Source: Candidatus Saccharimonadota bacterium
GTDB taxonomy: Bacteria > Patescibacteriota > Saccharimonadia > Saccharimonadales > Saccharimonadaceae
Length of the DNA: 64,000 nucleotides
Assembly (NCBI GenBank): GCA_017404515.1
Contig: JAFRCG010000028.1
Span: 1-64,000 of the forward strand
Direction: 5' to 3'
The position numbers and the translations under genes were made by a program. The notes under the pieces are model-generated. The model had not been told where the DNA came from. It was given only the letters and a program-made list of their open reading frames with translations, and did no database searches. Of this stretch, positions 2,577 to 16,902 are shown one piece after another. How positions within the stretch are numbered: position 1 is the stretch's first letter; the number at the start of each line of letters is the position of its first letter.

Positions 2577-5138
2577 TTATTTTGCAGCTTTTTCAAGCGG
2601 TGTTTCTGGCGCTTCTGACTTTTCTTCTTCCTCTTCAGGCAAAACTATACCAATAGAAGCCACTGTATCACCTTCACTCATCCGCATAATCCTCACCCCT
2701 TGAGTTGCCCGTCCTAGTGTTGGAATTTCTTTCATTGCCACCCTAATTGCCTGACCCTTAGTAGACATCATAATCACCTCTTTGGCTGCTGGGTCTAATG
2801 TGTGGACTGCCACAATTGGGCCAGTCTTGGTAGTGACAGACGCTACTTTGATTCCTACGCCACCTCTTTTATGTACTGGGAAATTAGACACCGCAGTAGC
2901 TTTTCCGTAACCATTAGCAGAGATCGCTAGAAGTTTTTGTGATGGATCAGTCACAATGTCCATACCCACAATCTCATCTTTTAGACGAAGTCTCATACCG
3001 CGTACACCTCTGGCGCTTCTACCCATTGCGCGTACTTGGTTTTCGTTAAACCTTACTGCCTGACCTGCTGAGGTGGAAATGATAATATCGTTAGAACCAG
3101 TAGTTCCCTTTACCCACTTTAGCTCATCACCTTCATCTAGTTTTATTGTAATCAAGCCATTTGTTCTAATATTCTCATAATCTTTGATTGCGGTCTTCTT
3201 TATTGTTCCCTTCTTGGTCGCCATAAAGAGATATCCCTCATCACCAAGCTCATTCCCCTGTTTGATGATTGCCGTAATCTTCTCATCTGGGTGCATGTTT
3301 AACATATTCACTGCCGCTGTTCCCTTGGCAGACAGAGACGCCTGTGGTACCTCGTAAGCCTTTGAGCGGAAAACCCGCCCCTGTGAAGTAAAGAATAGCA
3401 AGAAATCATGTGAGTTTGCCGTAATAATCTGAGAAATCACATCTTCTTCCTTGGTTGTCATTCCACGCTTACCTTTACCGCCCCTGTTTTGCTTGCGGAA
3501 GTCATTCTGAGACACACGCTTCATGTAGTTCTCTGCCGTTAGCAAGATTACGCTTTCTTCCTCTGGGATCAGCTCCTCTTCAGAGAATTTGCCTACTTCA
3601 TGATTGATAATCTTTGAACGACGAGGATCGCCATACTTTTCTTTCAGTGCCAGAAGTTCCTCTTTTATCACCTTCAAGATTTCGTTTTCGTCTGCCAAGA
3701 TCGCCTCTAATTTCTTGATTAGTTCGTGCAATTCTTTTAGCTCTTCCTCAATCTTATCGCGCTCTAGCCCTTGGAGTCTTCTTAGCTGCATCGCCAAAAT
3801 TGCTGCTGCCTGTATCTCTGACAAGCCAAACTTATTCATCAATCTTTTATCAGCATCATCGTAGCTTTCGCGGATGGTCTTAATCACTTCATCGATGTTA
3901 TCTAGAGCAATCTTCAAACCTTCCAAGATATGGGCGCGTTCTTTTGCTTTCTTTAGGTCAAACTCCGTCCTTCTTCTTACTACTTTCTGACGGTGCTTAA
4001 TGAATTCACCCAAAATCTCTTTTAGCCCCAAGATTCTCGGTTGGATACCATCCACCAACGCCAACATATTGTAGTGGAAAGTAGTCTGAAGCCCTGTCAT
4101 CTTGTATAGCTGATTCAGAATCTTCTTCGGGAAGGCATCTTTCTTTAGTTCCACTACTACGCGGATTTTACCTCTAGCAGATTCATCTCTTGCATCAGCA
4201 ATATGATCAAGTTTTTTATTCAATACTAGCTCGCGGACCTTCTCTATAAAGCCCTCTTTACTCATACCATAAGGTACTTCTGTAATAACAATGTTATAAC
4301 GGCCATTCTTGCGCTCTTCAATATTAGCTACTGCCCTAATTGTTACCGAACCCTTACCAGTAGCATAAGCCTGTTTCATTGGCGCGCCGCCATAAACTTC
4401 TGCCCCTGTTGGAAAATCCGGACCCTTCACATGTTTCATCAAATCATCTAGGGTAATTTCTGGATTATCAATCTGTGCCACTGTAGCATCTACTAATTCC
4501 CCCAGATTATGTGGTGGAATATTAGTAGCCATACCTACGGCAATACCCATCTGCCCGTTCAAGAGAATATTAGGCAGAGCCGCTGGCAAAACCACTGGTT
4601 CCTGTTCAGAACCATCAAAGTTATCCCTAAAATCAACTGTTTCTTTCTCGATATCGGTCAAAAGTTCGGTCCCCACCTTGTCCATTCTAGCCTCAGTATA
4701 CCTTGAAGCAGCCGCCTCATCACCGTCCATTGAGCCAAAGTTACCTTGTCCCTCAATCAAGGTGTAACGCATTTTCCAAGGCTGCGCCAAATTCACCATT
4801 GCATCATAGATAGAAGAATCACCGTGTGGGTGATATTTACCCATCACCTCACCTACGATACGCGCAGACTTCACTGTTGCATGTGGTGCTTTCCATCCAT
4901 TTTTGTTCATCGCATAGAGAATACGGCGATTCACTGGTTTCAAGCCATCTCTTACATCTGGAAGCGCACGGTCAATAATCACTGACATCGAATACCTTAG
5001 GAAGTAATCTTCCATCGTGCTTTCTACTGTCCGAAGCTCAATTCCGTCTATTACTTTTGTTTCACTTTTTTCTTCAGAGGTATTATCTTCTGGTTCTGGC
5101 ACCTCTGGTATGTTTTCTTTAACATCTTCTTTTACCAT
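2577..5138 (-). CDS. gyrA: DNA gyrase subunit A
   Basis: An 853-residue type IIA topoisomerase subunit that cleaves and rejoins DNA and, with GyrB, introduces negative supercoils. The catalytic tyrosine is Y147 in AASRYTEARM. The quinolone-binding segment reads HGDSSIYD with Ser108 and Asp112 at the positions of E. coli Ser83 and Asp87, so the sensitive-type residues are present. A coiled-coil arm spans about residues 390-480 and the C-terminal beta-propeller carries a gyrase box-like stretch (QNRGGKGKRG, about 535-545). There is an extra acidic N-terminal extension of about 30 residues. It starts 9 bases after gyrB with a strong AAGGAGG site, so the two form one operon. Confidence 0.97.
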   Translation of the reverse strand: MVKEDVKENIPEVPEPEDNTSEEKSETKVIDGIELRTVESTMEDYFLRYSMSVIIDRALPDVRDGLKPVNRRILYAMNKNGWKAPHATVKSARIVGEVMGKYHPHGDSSIYDAMVNLAQPWKMRYTLIEGQGNFGSMDGDEAAASRYTEARMDKVGTELLTDIEKETVDFRDNFDGSEQEPVVLPAALPNILLNGQMGIAVGMATNIPPHNLGELVDATVAQIDNPEITLDDLMKHVKGPDFPTGAEVYGGAPMKQAYATGKGSVTIRAVANIEERKNGRYNIVITEVPYGMSKEGFIEKVRELVLNKKLDHIADARDESARGKIRVVVELKKDAFPKKILNQLYKMTGLQTTFHYNMLALVDGIQPRILGLKEILGEFIKHRQKVVRRRTEFDLKKAKERAHILEGLKIALDNIDEVIKTIRESYDDADKRLMNKFGLSEIQAAAILAMQLRRLQGLERDKIEEELKELHELIKKLEAILADENEILKVIKEELLALKEKYGDPRRSKIINHEVGKFSEEELIPEEESVILLTAENYMKRVSQNDFRKQNRGGKGKRGMTTKEEDVISQIITANSHDFLLFFTSQGRVFRSKAYEVPQASLSAKGTAAVNMLNMHPDEKITAIIKQGNELGDEGYLFMATKKGTIKKTAIKDYENIRTNGLITIKLDEGDELKWVKGTTGSNDIIISTSAGQAVRFNENQVRAMGRSARGVRGMRLRLKDEIVGMDIVTDPSQKLLAISANGYGKATAVSNFPVHKRGGVGIKVASVTTKTGPIVAVHTLDPAAKEVIMMSTKGQAIRVAMKEIPTLGRATQGVRIMRMSEGDTVASIGIVLPEEEEEKSEAPETPLEKAAK

Positions 5139-5147
5139 ATTGCCTCC

Positions 5148-7130
5148 TTAAAAGTCTAGATCATCCAAATTAACTTTTGCGGCTCCAGCCTGAATAAAGT
5201 TTTTACGAAGATCGACCTGATCCCCCATCAGCTTCGTAAAGATTGCATCCGCTTTCTCTGCATCTTCAATGTTCACCTGTATCAGCACCCTATTTTCTGG
5301 ATTCATTGTGGTCTCCCAGAGCTGTTTTGCATCCATCTCACCAAGACCTTTAAACCTCTGTTGTGCTGTATATCCAGCCTGCTTAAATCTCTCCTGACCT
5401 TCATCAATTTTGGTCCCGGCTTTCTTCTTTTCCTCAATCTTCTCTGTTAATGCCTTTTCTAGCGCATCTTCATCATAGAGGTAATCAATCTTGCGAGTAT
5501 TTCCTGTACCCTTGATCAAGCCAAATAGTGGCGGCTTTGCCAAATAGACATGCCCTGCTTTAATCACCTCTGGCATATAGCGGAAAAAGAAAGTAAGTAG
5601 TAGCGTAGAAATATGTGAGCCATCCACATCGGCATCGGTCATAAACACAATCTTGTCGTATCTGAGACCCGCAATATCAAATTGCTCGCCAATACCTACG
5701 CCTAGACCCTTTATCAGGGAGACTAGCTCTTGGTTGGCTAACATCTTGTCTAGCCTTGCCCTCTCGGTGTTTAGCACTTTACCTCTTAGTGGCAAAATCG
5801 CCTGGATCTTTGGATCGCGACCTTCCTTAGCCGAACCAGCCGCCGAATTACCCTCTACGATAAAGAGCTCACATTCACTTCTGTCTCTAGAAGAGCAATC
5901 TGCCAATTTGGATGGTAAATTCAACCCTTCAAACGCACCCTTGCGGATGACATTATCTCTAGCTGCTCTTGCTGCCTTTCTAGCTCTGGCCGCCAAAGTT
6001 GCCTTAGAGACAATCTTCTTTGCAATCTGTGGATTTTCCTCTAGGTAATACCCAAAGTACTCACTCATTACCTTGTCGACATAGCCGCGCACCTCCGGAT
6101 TTCCTAGCTTGTTCTTGGTCTGACCTTCAAACTGTGGATCTGGTAATTTTACCAAAATCACCGCTGTCAAACCTTCTTTGATGTCATCTCCGGTCAGATT
6201 CTCTTCTTTCTCTTTCAGTAAGCCATTTTTCCTTGCATAATCATTAATCGTGCGATTTAATGCCGTCCTAAATCCTACTACATGCATACCACCATCAGGG
6301 GTCAGCACATTGTTGGCAAACGGCTTCATCGTCTCAGAGAAAGTATCATTATACTGTACGGCAATTTCCACTTCAGAATCTTCTATCTGTTTCTCTACAT
6401 AGAAAATATCATCTGCTAGTACTTCTTTTCCGTTGTTGAGGCGTTTTACATAAGATTTGATACCCCCTTCAAAATAGAATGATTCTTTCTCCCCTGTTCT
6501 CTCATCTACGACAGAAATCAAAATCCCCTTTGTCAGATACGCCTGGTGTCGAGCATAACTTGCCACCCAGCCATAATCAAAAGTAGTTGTCTCCTTAAAA
6601 ATAGTTGGATCTGGATAAAATGTGATGGAAGTTCCCTGTCTGTCGGTCTTGCCGGTCACCTCTAATGGTTTTACGGTTTTACCAGTATCAAACTCTATGT
6701 GATTTATCTTTCCATCTCTATAGACCTCTGCCACCATTCGCGTAGAAAGCGCGTTTACCACCGAAGAACCTACACCGTGGAGACCAGATGACACCTTGTA
6801 TCCACCATCACCAAACTTACCACCTGCGTGTAGCACCGTCAGCACTGTTTCCAGCGTAGAAAGATGCGTTTTAGGGTGCAAATCTACTGGGATACCACGC
6901 CCATTATCATCTACTCGTACTCCCCCGTCTGCTAATATTGTTATTTTTATCTTAGTTGCATATCCTGCAATCGCCTCATCGATGGAGTTATCTGCAATTT
7001 CCTTGATTAAGTGATGTAGCCCATCATAGCCAGTCGACCCGATATACATACCTGGGCGCTTGCGTACTGGCTCTAGCCCCTCCAAAACCTGGATTTGTGA
7101 GCTATCATAACTATTAGCTTTCTCAGCCAT
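5148..7130 (-). CDS. gyrB: DNA gyrase subunit B
   Basis: A 660-residue ATPase subunit of gyrase. The GHKL ATP-binding fold is at the N-terminus (ADNSIDEA, DNGRGIPVD, HAGGKFG, GLHGVGSSVVNALS). The TOPRIM metal site is visible as EGNSAAGSAKEGRD and DADVDGSHIS. The C-terminal GyrA-binding motif appears as QRFKGLGEMDAKQLWETTM. Length is that of the short (Gram-positive type) GyrB without the proteobacterial insert. It is first in the gyrB-gyrA operon under the promoter at 7167-7195. The early residues (QIQVLEGLEPVRKRPGMYIG) are canonical, which supports the ATG at 7130. Confidence 0.97.
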   Translation of the reverse strand: MAEKANSYDSSQIQVLEGLEPVRKRPGMYIGSTGYDGLHHLIKEIADNSIDEAIAGYATKIKITILADGGVRVDDNGRGIPVDLHPKTHLSTLETVLTVLHAGGKFGDGGYKVSSGLHGVGSSVVNALSTRMVAEVYRDGKINHIEFDTGKTVKPLEVTGKTDRQGTSITFYPDPTIFKETTTFDYGWVASYARHQAYLTKGILISVVDERTGEKESFYFEGGIKSYVKRLNNGKEVLADDIFYVEKQIEDSEVEIAVQYNDTFSETMKPFANNVLTPDGGMHVVGFRTALNRTINDYARKNGLLKEKEENLTGDDIKEGLTAVILVKLPDPQFEGQTKNKLGNPEVRGYVDKVMSEYFGYYLEENPQIAKKIVSKATLAARARKAARAARDNVIRKGAFEGLNLPSKLADCSSRDRSECELFIVEGNSAAGSAKEGRDPKIQAILPLRGKVLNTERARLDKMLANQELVSLIKGLGVGIGEQFDIAGLRYDKIVFMTDADVDGSHISTLLLTFFFRYMPEVIKAGHVYLAKPPLFGLIKGTGNTRKIDYLYDEDALEKALTEKIEEKKKAGTKIDEGQERFKQAGYTAQQRFKGLGEMDAKQLWETTMNPENRVLIQVNIEDAEKADAIFTKLMGDQVDLRKNFIQAGAAKVNLDDLDF

Positions 7131-11068: not shown

Positions 11069-11416
11069 TTATAGCCTTTTGTTTATCACAAAACAGCCCA
11101 GCACCACAAAAACCACTGTCATACCAATAGTCGCCAAGTTAAAACTACCAAAAGACCTAATCAATAGCAACATCACCGGCCCAAAAGCAATCATCGCCGC
11201 ATAGTAATGCTCTTTTCTCTCTGTTCTTCTATACCCCATCAGTCGCACAAATCCCACCACTAATAGATTCACCACTCCAAACACCACTATATAAACCATT
11301 GTAAAAAATACTAAAACCCCTAAGGGACCCACGCCCGTAGGGGTAGTAAAATTTATCATCGCGAGAATAATAATCACGGCAAGCAAACTCAGAAGCATCA
11401 TCAGACGAGTAAACAT
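11069..11416 (-). CDS. Small membrane protein of unknown function
   Basis: A 115-residue protein made almost entirely of membrane helices (four, at about 5-22, 30-53, 70-88 and 92-110) with a positively charged loop (MGYRRTERKEHY) between the second and third. I do not recognise the family. An upstream in-frame GTG would add MWYNEV, but those codons are the -10 box itself (TATAAT at 11423-11428), so the ATG at 11416 is the better start and the message is likely leaderless. It lies just downstream of the structured RNA on the same strand and could also be read from that promoter. Confidence 0.65.
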   Translation of the reverse strand: MFTRLMMLLSLLAVIIILAMINFTTPTGVGPLGVLVFFTMVYIVVFGVVNLLVVGFVRLMGYRRTERKEHYYAAMIAFGPVMLLLIRSFGSFNLATIGMTVVFVVLGCFVINKRL

Positions 11417-11422
11417 AACCTC

Positions 11423-11428
11423 ATTATA
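11423..11428 (-). promoter_or_regulatory. -10 box six bases before the ATG (leaderless)
   Basis: TATAAT preceded by TGG, six bases before the ATG at 11416. Confidence 0.6.
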
Positions 11429-11444
11429 CCACAAGATTTTCTAT

Positions 11445-11902
11445 TTGGCTTAGTTCTCTCCCAGAACACTCGACCCCAACTGCGAAAAGGTCGTTCCAAA
11501 TATTTGTTTTATTATTCTCCCAAAGATAAGAAATTTTTGCCCTATTTTCATAGGGCTAAAGAGTGGGAGTTATCCGGCACGATTAAATTACTTTAGGCCG
11601 CAACTCTCATTCCACTCTCTAGCTTTTGACCGCCTCGCTTTTGCGAGACATTGTCCTTACTAACATCTTCAGTCATTCTTTTTTCTTTAAGGTACTAATG
11701 GCTTAGATCTTAGTGCGCTCTACGCATTTAGCGGAGCTATAGGTAATTCCTACTTTGTAATTTATGGCTAGAAATTACCTATTTGCCCGCCAAATCTGGC
11801 TTCCTGATAGAATCAGAGGAGCTATTATCTAGCCCCGAAAGCTTATTTGTATGTCATGTTTTCCTTTTAATTTACAATTTTTTGTTTTGGTCTTTTCGAC
11901 TT
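11445..11902 (-). ncRNA. Unassigned large structured RNA candidate
   Basis: About 450 bases without a convincing gene but with a strong promoter at one end and dense inverted repeats. On the minus strand I see: AGGTAATT / AATTACCT (about 11781 to 11743); GGCTAG (about 11836-11831), which can pair with CTAGCC inside the loop of that hairpin and so form a pseudoknot; GCTC-CGC / GCG-GAGC (about 11738-11718); CTCGC-AAAA-GCGAG (about 11647-11634); AGAGTGG / CCACTCT (about 11619 to 11564); GCCCTA / TAGGGC (about 11555-11538); and CGACC / GGTCG (about 11493-11471). It is not the tmRNA, which is at 13040-13395. No tRNA-like T arm, SRP loop or RNase P core is present. The 3' end is uncertain. A 27-codon ORF (11676 to 11594) lies inside but looks incidental. 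Confidence 0.55.
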
Positions 11903-11908
11903 GTTTTC

Positions 11909-11937
11909 ATCATAGCACAAGCTCTTTATTTTTTCAA
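11909..11937 (-). promoter_or_regulatory. Promoter of the unassigned structured RNA
   Basis: Minus strand TTGAAA (11932-11937), 17-base spacer, TATGAT (11909-11914). It is identical in hexamers and spacing to the gyrB promoter. Predicted start is near 11902. Confidence 0.75.
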
Positions 11938-11952
11938 GACCTTTGAGCACAT

Positions 11953-12040
11953 TTTTTATTGTATTTTTTACAACATTCTACTATTTTATTCAATTTTATA
12001 TCTGTAATTGCGCTTTATTTGTATGTTGTGTTTTTTACAA
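11953..12040. repeat. Two TGTTGTAAAAAA motifs in an AT-rich gap
   Basis: The minus strand carries ATGTTGTAAAAAATAC (about 11960-11976) and ATGTTGTAAAAAACACAACAT (about 12022-12042), the second being itself an inverted repeat (ATGTTGT / ACAACAT). The same core occurs upstream of comM and twice inside it. Apart from these motifs the stretch 11938-12080 is AT-rich with no gene. Confidence 0.6.
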
Positions 12041-12080
12041 CATTATGCCCATTTTTAGTCTTTTTCTTTGTTCAAAATAT

Positions 12081-13039: not shown

Positions 13040-13395
13040 TGGTGGAGCTGCCGGATACTGCCTCCGGGTCCGAACTACCTTCATAATACCATTCTACATG
13101 CATAGTCTATCTGTTCTTCTTGATATTTCTTACCAGTACAAACAGACAAAATCTGATAAGTGTCATGACCATCTTTCGGACCTCTGTTAGTCGGGCAAAG
13201 GACCTATTCCCATAAATCTGATAACTCTATCTGTTATGGAAACTCTCAGTAGAGCCAGCCTATCTATAAATTAGGCAAAAGCAGGCATGTAAGCTACATG
13301 CTTGCTGGAAGATTTTTCTTCACTTTTTCAGTACTTACGGTACAAAACGACATGCTTGGTATCTGTTAATAATCCGTCTAAGCTTTGTCAGCCCC
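13040..13395 (-). ncRNA. ssrA: Transfer-messenger RNA (tmRNA)
   Basis: A 356-nt one-piece tmRNA that rescues stalled ribosomes. The 5' end GGGGCTGA pairs with CAGCTCC before an encoded ACCA, forming a 7-bp acceptor stem with a G3-U70 wobble, the alanine identity element. The tag frame, read from about 13321 to the TAA at 13273, gives EEKSSSKHVAYMPAFA. The resume codon is uncertain by one. An AFA end is known from mycoplasma tags. Unpaired A-rich sequence precedes the tag, and several stems follow the stop codon as expected for the pseudoknots. The T arm is odd: a perfect 5-bp stem CCGGA / TCCGG closes a loop GGCAGTA, not the usual TTCRANN. Its promoter and terminator are both visible. Confidence 0.93.
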
Positions 13396-13551: not shown

Positions 13552-15075
13552 ATGATTGCAAAAACTACCTCTATTATTCCACTCGGATTCAGCGCCGCCG
13601 AGATTAAAGTTGAAGGCGCTAAAAACAATGGCCTACCCAGCTTTAACATCGTCGGCATGGGCTCTAGGACCATTTCTGAGGCGCGTGAACGCGTCAAGTC
13701 CGCCATCAAGAGCTCTGGCTTCTCCTTCCCTAGCCAGAAACTCGTTATCAACCTTGCTCCTGCCGACCTAGAGAAAGACGGCTCTCTCTTAGATCTACCT
13801 ATCGCTATCAATGTCCTCATCCTCGCCGGGGAGCTCCAGCAAAAAGATATAGAAGGTTGTGCCTTTGTTGGCGAACTGTCTCTAGACGGCTCCCTTAACC
13901 CTGTGCGCGGTATCATCAACATCGTCGAAGCCGCCAAAAAACTTGGCATTCGCGATCTCTTTATCCCTGTTAAAAATTTTACTCAGGCCAAGATCATCTC
14001 TGGTGTTCATCTTATCCCAGCCAATACTCTCTCGGATATCTTTCTCCACCTCAAGAAACAGCTTGTCATCTCCCCACCGCCAAATGTTGTAAAAAATACT
14101 AATACAGATATAAGCACTACCGATTTGCCGTTTCCTACCCTGGACCAAATCAAAGGCCAAGCCATCGCCAAGCGCGCTCTTTCTATCGCCATTGCCGGAC
14201 GCCACAATATTCTTCTTTCTGGGCCACCTGGCACCGGCAAAACCATGCTTGCTAAATCCAGTCTTGGGCTCCTACCCCCGCTTGATATTACTGAACAAAT
14301 TTCTATCACCAAGCTTCATTCCCTAGCCGGCACAACTACTCACATCATCAAGGATCGACCTTTTAGAACGCCTCACCATACTAGTAGCTTAGCATCTCTC
14401 ATTGGTGGTGGCGCCAAAGCCACCCCGGGTGAAATCTCCCTAGCCCATCTTGGAGTCCTCTTCCTTGACGAGCTTCCAGAATATCCCAGATCCCATCTTG
14501 AATCACTCCGTCAACCGCTAGAGGATCACGAGGTGACTATCTCTCGCGCCAAAACCAAAGTAGTCTACCCTGCCGATTTTATGCTTATTGCCACCATGAA
14601 TCCTTGTCCTTGTGGCTACCTCGGCGACCCCTCGCATTCCTGCACTTGCACTAACACTAGGATCGCGAATTATCAGAGAAAGCTTTCTGGTCCACTGCTA
14701 GACCGCATTGATCTGTTCGTCGAGATCGAACGCCCAAAAGCCTCCGATCTCCTTTCTAACTCCTCTCCATCAACATCTTTGCGCCATGATGTTGTAAAAA
14801 ATACTGTAACAGATGCTATCGCCATTCAGCATCAGCGCTACCAAGATCAGCACACTTTCAATTCTTACGCTTCAGCTCACTCTATCACCGAAAATTTTTC
14901 CCTCTCCAAATCTGCCGAGTCTCTGCTAAACTCCGCCTCCAGCCGCCTCAATTTGTCCGCCAGGAGCTACTTCAAGCTCATTAAAGTCGCCCGCACTATT
15001 GCCGATCTAGAAAAATCTAATTCCATTCTTGATTCCCATATTGCAGAAGCCCTTACTTACCGTCGAAAAAACTAA
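13552..15075 (+). CDS. comM: ComM/YifB family Mg-chelatase-like AAA+ ATPase
   Basis: A 507-residue protein of the ComM family, hexameric AAA+ helicases that help integrate transforming DNA by branch migration. The N-terminal lonS5-like domain spans about 1-165. The AAA+ core carries Walker A SGPPGTGKT (about 221-229), FRTPHHTSS, Walker B GVLFLDELPE and the cysteine cluster MNPCPCGYLGDPSHSCTC. The C-terminal Mg-chelatase domain follows. Two linker segments contain the same 17-base DNA word and so the same peptide, (N/D)VVKNT, at about 181-186 and 415-420, which other ComM proteins do not usually show. A weak TGC-TACCTT six bases before the ATG may be the -10 box. With pilus genes at 51-60 kb it suggests natural competence. 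Confidence 0.93.
   Translation: MIAKTTSIIPLGFSAAEIKVEGAKNNGLPSFNIVGMGSRTISEARERVKSAIKSSGFSFPSQKLVINLAPADLEKDGSLLDLPIAINVLILAGELQQKDIEGCAFVGELSLDGSLNPVRGIINIVEAAKKLGIRDLFIPVKNFTQAKIISGVHLIPANTLSDIFLHLKKQLVISPPPNVVKNTNTDISTTDLPFPTLDQIKGQAIAKRALSIAIAGRHNILLSGPPGTGKTMLAKSSLGLLPPLDITEQISITKLHSLAGTTTHIIKDRPFRTPHHTSSLASLIGGGAKATPGEISLAHLGVLFLDELPEYPRSHLESLRQPLEDHEVTISRAKTKVVYPADFMLIATMNPCPCGYLGDPSHSCTCTNTRIANYQRKLSGPLLDRIDLFVEIERPKASDLLSNSSPSTSLRHDVVKNTVTDAIAIQHQRYQDQHTFNSYASAHSITENFSLSKSAESLLNSASSRLNLSARSYFKLIKVARTIADLEKSNSILDSHIAEALTYRRKN
14086..14112 (+). repeat. TGTTGTAAAAAATACT motif, comM internal copy 1
   Basis: ATGTTGTAAAAAATACT is followed after three bases by ACAGAT, in the linker before the AAA+ domain. 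It is identical over 17 bases to the second internal copy. Confidence 0.7.
14789..14815 (+). repeat. TGTTGTAAAAAATACT motif, comM internal copy 2
   Basis: ATGTTGTAAAAAATACT followed after three bases by ACAGAT, in the same reading frame as copy 1. Confidence 0.7.
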
Positions 15076-16526: not shown

Positions 16527-16558
16527 GATGTGATGAAAGTTTTATTTTTTATCTTAAA

Positions 16559-16881
16559 AGCTCAAAGTAAGCCGGGTTCTGTCGTCGATAAATCAACGGG
16601 CAATCATCTATCTAGACACTAAATTGCTTCAGTGTTCAAGCGGTAAGCGTGCATCCTCGGGACGAGGTTTATAGCACTCCTTGCAGCCGGTAGGGTTTGC
16701 CTCCGTTAAATGTCACCATCTAGCGCTGTGGGCTCTTACCCCACTCTTTTCACCCTTGCCTTTCGGCGGTATAGTTTCTGTGGTACTTTCCCTACGCTTA
16801 CGCGCGGTTGCCGTTAGCAACTACCGTACCCTGTGCTGCCCGGACTTTCCTCTGGCTATGCCAGCGATTGCCGTTTGAGCT
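16559..16881 (-). ncRNA. rnpB: RNase P RNA (bacterial type A)
   Basis: About 323 nt of the catalytic RNA that trims tRNA 5' ends. On the minus strand the conserved core GAGGAAAGTCCGGGC is near the 5' end (about 16855-16838) and ACAGAACCCGGCTTA is near the 3' end (about 16583-16569). The ends pair exactly (AGCTCAAA with TTTGAGCT), giving the P1 helix and the boundaries used here. Hairpins that fit the specificity domain lie between. It converges on the infC operon terminator. The 3' side runs into AT-rich sequence, so the mature end may be made by processing. Confidence 0.95.
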
Positions 16882-16902
16882 TTTTTAATTATAACACATT
16901 TA

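Follow-up and report, generated by a model that had tools for sequence, protein, structure and literature searches.

A conserved structured RNA of the Saccharibacteria, probably free-standing, with alternative helices that a terminating ribosome may select in one genus

TnaC, the Erm leaders, and the trp attenuators share one layout, a tiny open reading frame (ORF) followed by mutually exclusive helices with a common strand. The same layout is found in an RNA encoded in a 64,000-nucleotide stretch of a Saccharibacteria genome (contig JAFRCG010000028.1; hereafter the window). The RNA also resembles tmRNA in combining a structured fold with a short reading frame and in its putative contact with the ribosome; the OLE, ROOL, GOLLD, and raiA RNAs in being long, structured, and conserved with no obvious function; and SRP RNA and 6S RNA in being single-copy and of a housekeeping type. 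Comparison with these systems revealed that (i) unlike attenuators and stalling peptides, the RNA looks free-standing, with its own terminator in relatives, its ORF varies in sequence and is rich in Lys/Arg, pausing would take place at termination, and neither a terminator nor a start codon is coupled to the helices; (ii) unlike tmRNA, it has no Rfam match, and a separate tmRNA lies at 13040–13395; (iii) unlike OLE, ROOL, GOLLD, and raiA, it has no Rfam match, has a compact form of 140–180 nt, and is restricted to one order; and (iv) unlike SRP RNA and 6S RNA, it contains an A-loop hairpin, P4, and P5/P6, and their covariance models do not match it. No earlier report of the RNA was found in the literature searched.

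An earlier note on this DNA had described a large folded RNA with many inverted repeats, about 450 bases without a credible gene, and its own promoter. The RNA is real and structured, but its strand had to be corrected to the minus strand (11902 to 11445). The minus strand of 11902–11437 forms several hairpins and folds with −138.3 kcal/mol versus −100.2 kcal/mol (SD 5.7) for shuffles (z −6.7), whereas the plus strand of the same stretch folds more weakly (z −4.6 versus shuffles). The predicted transcript start, judged from a sigma-70-like promoter (11937 to 11909, minus strand), is near 11902. A consensus promoter match is not significant alone (4 found in 2.5 kb versus 4.7 expected); this −35/−10 pair is kept at 137 of the 139 homologous loci, which bears out the proposed promoter. 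The roughly 450 nt 3′ of it contain no conventional gene, as claimed, but do contain an ORF led by a Shine–Dalgarno (SD) sequence, which the earlier note had overlooked along with the two alternative helices described below. The RNA is present as one copy in its own genome, with the following general features.

11445–11902, minus strand: the RNA, extent as set in the earlier note (fold z −6.7 and homologues)
11909–11937, minus strand: promoter TTGAAA, 17 nt, TATGAT, extended TG (pair in 137/139 loci)
11890–11900, minus strand: 5′ terminal hairpin GUC-GAAAA-GAC (alignment, by eye)
11863–11889, minus strand: A/C-rich unstructured stretch ending in AAAAGGA (SD)
11843–11857, minus strand: SD-led leader ORF AUG ACA UAC AAA UAA (MTYK, then stop)
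11539–11556, minus strand: hairpin GCCCUAUGAAAAUAGGGC 3′ of P5 (predicted fold)
11471–11493, minus strand: hairpin with loop UUUUCGCAGUU (alignment, by eye)

In relatives, the 5′ terminal hairpin reads AGUC-GAGAU-GACU or AUCGU-AGGA-ACGAU (alignment, by eye). The hairpin with the UUUUCGCAGUU loop belongs to the subclade of the window (L001, L002, L003, L005, and L012). Two pseudoknots were rejected: the GGCTAG/CTAGCC pairing of the earlier note, because the upstream GGCTAG is kept at 1 of 139 loci, and a pairing of the loop ACCTT with AAGGA, because the loop changes (ACATT) without compensation.

A search of Rfam 15 (4,227 families) returned no match at gathering and chance matches alone at E ≤ 10, and ten compact loci of other families (described below) gave no Rfam match; as the earlier note had supposed, the RNA is a new family with no known relative. 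The covariance models of tmRNA (RF00023), RNase P (RF00010), and 6S RNA (RF00013) did not match it, and those of SRP RNA (RF00169 and RF01854, including domain IV) matched neither the RNA nor its compact forms, its own genome, or 8 genomes. tmRNA and RNase P RNA do lie elsewhere in the window, as previously stated:

13040–13395, minus strand: tmRNA (Rfam, 78.8 bits)
16553–16883: RNase P RNA (Rfam)

This tmRNA was missed by ARAGORN. That the RNA is a diverged SRP RNA, 6S RNA, tmRNA, or RNase P RNA is highly improbable. In its favor, SRP RNA and 6S RNA are otherwise not above cut-off in the genomes tested (among 8 genomes, 6S RNA gave one sub-threshold match, in G311, elsewhere in the genome); against it stand the missing Rfam matches for the long form and the ten compact loci, the separate tmRNA and RNase P RNA, and the proteins. 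The Ffh M domain (PF02978) was not found in the own genome, and the SRP54 GTPase (PF00448) stayed below cut-off in 21 of 21 genomes of the order (controls positive 14/14), which leaves no evident SRP partner. In this genome and in 20 others from the order, the signal recognition particle seems to be missing. Hfq was found in 0 of 18 genomes, which does not fit an Hfq-dependent small RNA.

Nearly every relative of the genus yielded a homologue in a DNA search, and the core of these homologues is about 90% identical. At least 117 genome stretches contain the exact 19-mer TTTCTAGCCATAAATTACA; the titles among the matches listed were Saccharibacteria and one unclassified bacterium. Two covariance models, R1 (P1–P2) and R2 (P4–P6), were built from 21 genus sequences. 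R1 matched three genera, and R2 adjoins R1 in all true cases; R1 matches in families f2 and f33 (L188 and L189) had no R2 partner alongside and were judged to be chance. Across many further genera of the family, R2 matched the syntenic site upstream of the membrane-protein gene. A broader covariance model, R3, whose search uses no gene context, matched 237 of 393 genomes and 89 of 156 genera of the order, the tiny, parasitic Saccharibacteria. On the window it matched 11664–11552 (E 2e-20), and 37 of 40 syntenic loci have an R3 match at the right place, 26 of them outside the training set. Among 380 genomes of the phylum, nothing outside the order passed and all 18 matches lie inside it; the RNA is thus order-wide, not Patescibacteria-wide as had been suggested. 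Two assemblies (G221 and G382; L285–L288) carry two copies each of the RNA and membrane gene; since all four copies adjoin the membrane gene, these are possibly strain mixtures, or else duplications. In many relatives, as in the window, the contig tends to stop about 10 kb downstream of the RNA.

The core hairpins found by R2 and R3 are as follows.

11628–11656, minus strand: P4 hairpin GGAC..GGUC (kept throughout the order)
11555–11623, minus strand: P5 (GCUAGAGAGUGG/CCACUCUUUAGC) around P6 (GAGUU-GCGGCC..GUGCCGGAU-AACUC)

Double changes occur at 27 of 53 pairs in the genus alignment. For the order-level core, an alignment of 40 diverse sequences fitted to the covariance model and biased towards structure has 95.7% of cells paired (30–42% in slid controls), 149 double-change cells versus 42 in shuffles (0/500), and a covariation score of 0.548 versus 0.219 (SD 0.011) in shuffles (0/500). 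The compact forms, whose alignment was not model-fitted, also covary (0/500 shuffles). P6 has covariation support, and P5 was assigned by eye. The covariation in homologues that the earlier note had named as a check is strong, and together with the order-wide recovery it counters the reading that an AT-rich intergenic stretch merely folds by chance, to which we give negligible probability. The RNA is almost certainly a conserved structured RNA.

In other families, the RNA is a compact gene of about 140–180 nt, probably the ancestral form, composed of a promoter (TTGAC..TGTGCTAGTAT), a hairpin with a conserved CAAAAACAAAAA loop, two covarying hairpins, and usually an intrinsic terminator. The first hairpin is GUAAG-loop-CUUAC, with stem strands that vary in step; P4 ends with GAGCGGUCAGUCA, and P5/P6 reads GACGGUAAGCGC..AAUAGU..GCGGAUUUACCGUC. 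The A/C-rich stretch of the window (11863–11889) is the counterpart of the CAAAAACAAAAA loop. Intrinsic terminators lie 3′ of the compact RNA in L271, L275, L276, L278, and L281 (by program) and 3′ of the RNA in L270, L283, and L299–L304 (by eye), and a −10-like box and then the ATG of the gene follow the terminator of the compact RNA. These terminators between compact RNA and gene are the main reason for calling it a free-standing RNA gene, a designation that probably holds for the order generally.

The family of the window has an added helix, P2, and 2 mutually exclusive helices, P1 and P3, with one strand in common.

11785–11794, minus strand: P1 5′ arm UUUGGCGGGC (swap test)
11769–11780, minus strand: P2 5′ arm AGGUAAUUUCUA (compensatory variants)
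11756–11774, minus strand: nearly invariant UUUCUAGCCAUAAAUUACA, running across the P2 end and its loop (117 or more genome stretches match it exactly)
11741–11752, minus strand: P2 3′ arm UAGGAAUUACCU
11727–11737, minus strand: shared strand GCUCCGCUAAA, pairing with the P1 5′ arm or the P3 3′ arm
11717–11725, minus strand: P3 3′ arm GCGUAGAGC (swap test and column counts)

P2 shows the compensatory variants AGCUUAUUUCUA/UAGGAGUAAGCU, AGGUUAUUUCUA/UAGGAAUAACCU, and AGGCAAUU/AAUUGCCU. A hairpin GUAAUUU/AAAUUAC inside P2 was rejected because it is disrupted in relatives carrying AGCUUAUU; P2 is therefore the real helix. The shared strand GCUCCGC(C/U) pairs either with the upstream partner UUUGGCGG to form P1, which encloses P2, or with the downstream partner GCG-UA-GAGC to form P3. 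When arms were swapped between sequences, native P1 arms paired with −13.97 versus −9.91 kcal/mol for permuted ones and native P3 arms with −7.34 versus −5.74 kcal/mol (0/5000 each); sequence relatedness inflates these tests, so that the 14 classes of shared strand are the better measure. Both helices are preserved in divergent copies such as L024 (P1 TTGATG/CGTCAA; P3 GCTTCGT/ACGAAGC), L028 (P1 ATTAGTGA/TCACTAAT; P3 GCTCA-CTAA-TGAGC), L061, and L074. Column-wise shuffles of the genus alignment support P3 (covariation 0/500), and P1 is weak in them (107/500) because MAFFT displaces the P1 arm in divergent rows; the support for P1 is the swap test. These comparisons of sequences show that both P1 and P3 have been kept by evolution in the family of the window. 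Other genera lack a clear ORF but retain P1/P3-like pairing.

The leader ORF is a feature of one genus; the compact form has no clear ORF. An SD-led AUG is present in 95 of 119 genus-like sequences, and the stop codon lies within −12 to +3 nt of the P1 arm in 91 of these 95 and exactly at −1 in 51, whereas the control frames +1 and +2 gave 2 and 22 stops near the P1 arm. The 65 distinct leader peptides are 2–12 aa long and 52% Lys+Arg. Of 75 distinct leader ORFs, 60 have a last codon for Pro or Thr, versus 0 of 40 window ORFs of at least 200 aa, a mechanical list and not curated genes; the last codon of the leader ORFs is mostly CCA or ACG, so that common descent or a constraint on the RNA itself may account for part of the bias. 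Termination stalling has been linked to C-terminal Pro and, in some contexts, to C-terminal Thr (PMC7246954). From their sequence pattern, the leader ORFs are clearly under selection in the genus, and their translation is predicted.

We propose that a ribosome would pause at the stop codon of the leader ORF and cover the P1 5′ arm, which would free the shared strand and let P3 form. The state of termination (release-factor, rescue, or recycling) would gate the fold of the RNA, whose function would reside in the core hairpins P4–P6 and the A-rich element and be exerted in trans on a partner. An energy model of 84 sequences shows the feasibility, not the use, of such a shift: P1 is dominant in 83 of 84 when unblocked, and with the 10 nt after the stop blocked P3 is dominant in 55 and the other 29 do not switch. 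In the window's own copy, the ORF stops about 48 nt before P1, with an extra hairpin in between, so direct gating is doubtful there; the ribosome may act indirectly, or gating may have been lost. As modelled, ribosome-gated switching in this genus is a serious possibility rather than our expectation. The overall proposal, that a free-standing RNA with its own minus-strand promoter, single-copy in most genomes of the order, has its fold gated by a terminating ribosome, we regard as evenly poised.

Another candidate for the target of the ORF and helices is the gene that follows the RNA.

11069–11417, minus strand: membrane-protein gene (115 aa from the ATG), downstream (adjoins the RNA throughout the order)
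11424–11429, minus strand: −10 box TATAAT of the membrane-protein gene, whose ATG (11417) lies 6 nt further on, leaderless type (likewise in relatives)

This small membrane protein, which had no Pfam match, is encoded beside the RNA in 67 of 81 family genomes. Further downstream are genes for a 265-aa protein and then a T4CP-like ATPase (Pfam matches just under the curated cut-off); a 196-aa ORF, tmRNA, and comM lie upstream of the RNA. The ORFs at 5148–7130 and 2577–5138 read as gyrB and gyrA (by eye); an oriC inside the window was rejected since the GC skew does not flip. The membrane-protein and T4CP genes might have this RNA as their 5′ leader, with the RNA acting as a leader-peptide attenuator in which translation of the ORF sets P1/P3 and then read-through. 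A tiny selected ORF upstream of alternative helices is the classical layout and is found at the genus level, although the two are not adjacent in the window's copy; the membrane gene is downstream at 18 of 19 loci fetched via the RNA alone; and in this genus no evident terminator separates the RNA from the gene, so transcription may read through into the gene. We consider an attenuator unlikely, however. As the earlier note had held, the gene has its own promoter, and its view that the RNA need not be a leader is strengthened by the terminator that usually parts RNA and gene in other families, independent intrinsic terminators following the whole RNA in several other lineages. P1 and P3 overlap neither a terminator nor the gene start, and no U-run follows either helix. 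The adjacency may be plain synteny, since conservation is widespread for the whole block of comM, RNA, membrane gene, and T4CP (comM in 55 of 64 loci, T4CP in 24, namely those with enough flank), and adjacency alone is thus no proof of cis regulation.

A constitutive housekeeping RNA would explain the same elements differently: the ORF would shield the 5′ end or hold ribosomes near, and P1 and P3 would be successive, unregulated folding steps. A 5′ hairpin plus a ribosome site is the layout of stabilising 5′ leaders, which the 5′ end of the RNA resembles, and the core function does not need the ORF, given that the compact form has no clear one. This account is rather unlikely, as it leaves the position of the stop codon relative to P1 and the Pro/Thr endings unexplained.

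The gating reading, if true, would mean that a terminating ribosome determines how an RNA folds and that the target is not a downstream gene; the putative switch would take over the logic of known leader-peptide regulation. More tentatively, the RNA may represent a new free-standing class, probably a core component of Saccharibacteria, in which one genus gained a slow-terminating leader ORF and ribosome-switched folds report the termination state in trans. The genetics of Saccharibacteria has so far been protein-centred, and the RNA adds an order-wide class to a lineage without SRP RNA or Hfq detectable in these searches. Cultured Saccharibacteria are transformable (PMC10633639), so mutant tests of the RNA are feasible.

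Upstream of the promoter, 2 dyads were found.

12024–12042, minus strand: upstream dyad copy TGTTGTAAAAAACACAACA, candidate operator
11957–11975, minus strand: second dyad TGTTGTAAAAAATACAATA, preceding the −35 box

With ≤4 mismatches allowed, a dyad of the TGTTGTAAAAAATACAACA type precedes the RNA at 138 of 139 loci versus 5 of 695 shuffles and is a candidate regulator site. The window contains the half-word of this dyad more often than expected (7 versus 0.66), and the half-word also occurs inside comM; further occurrences lie at 14086–14099 and 14791–14804 (plus strand).
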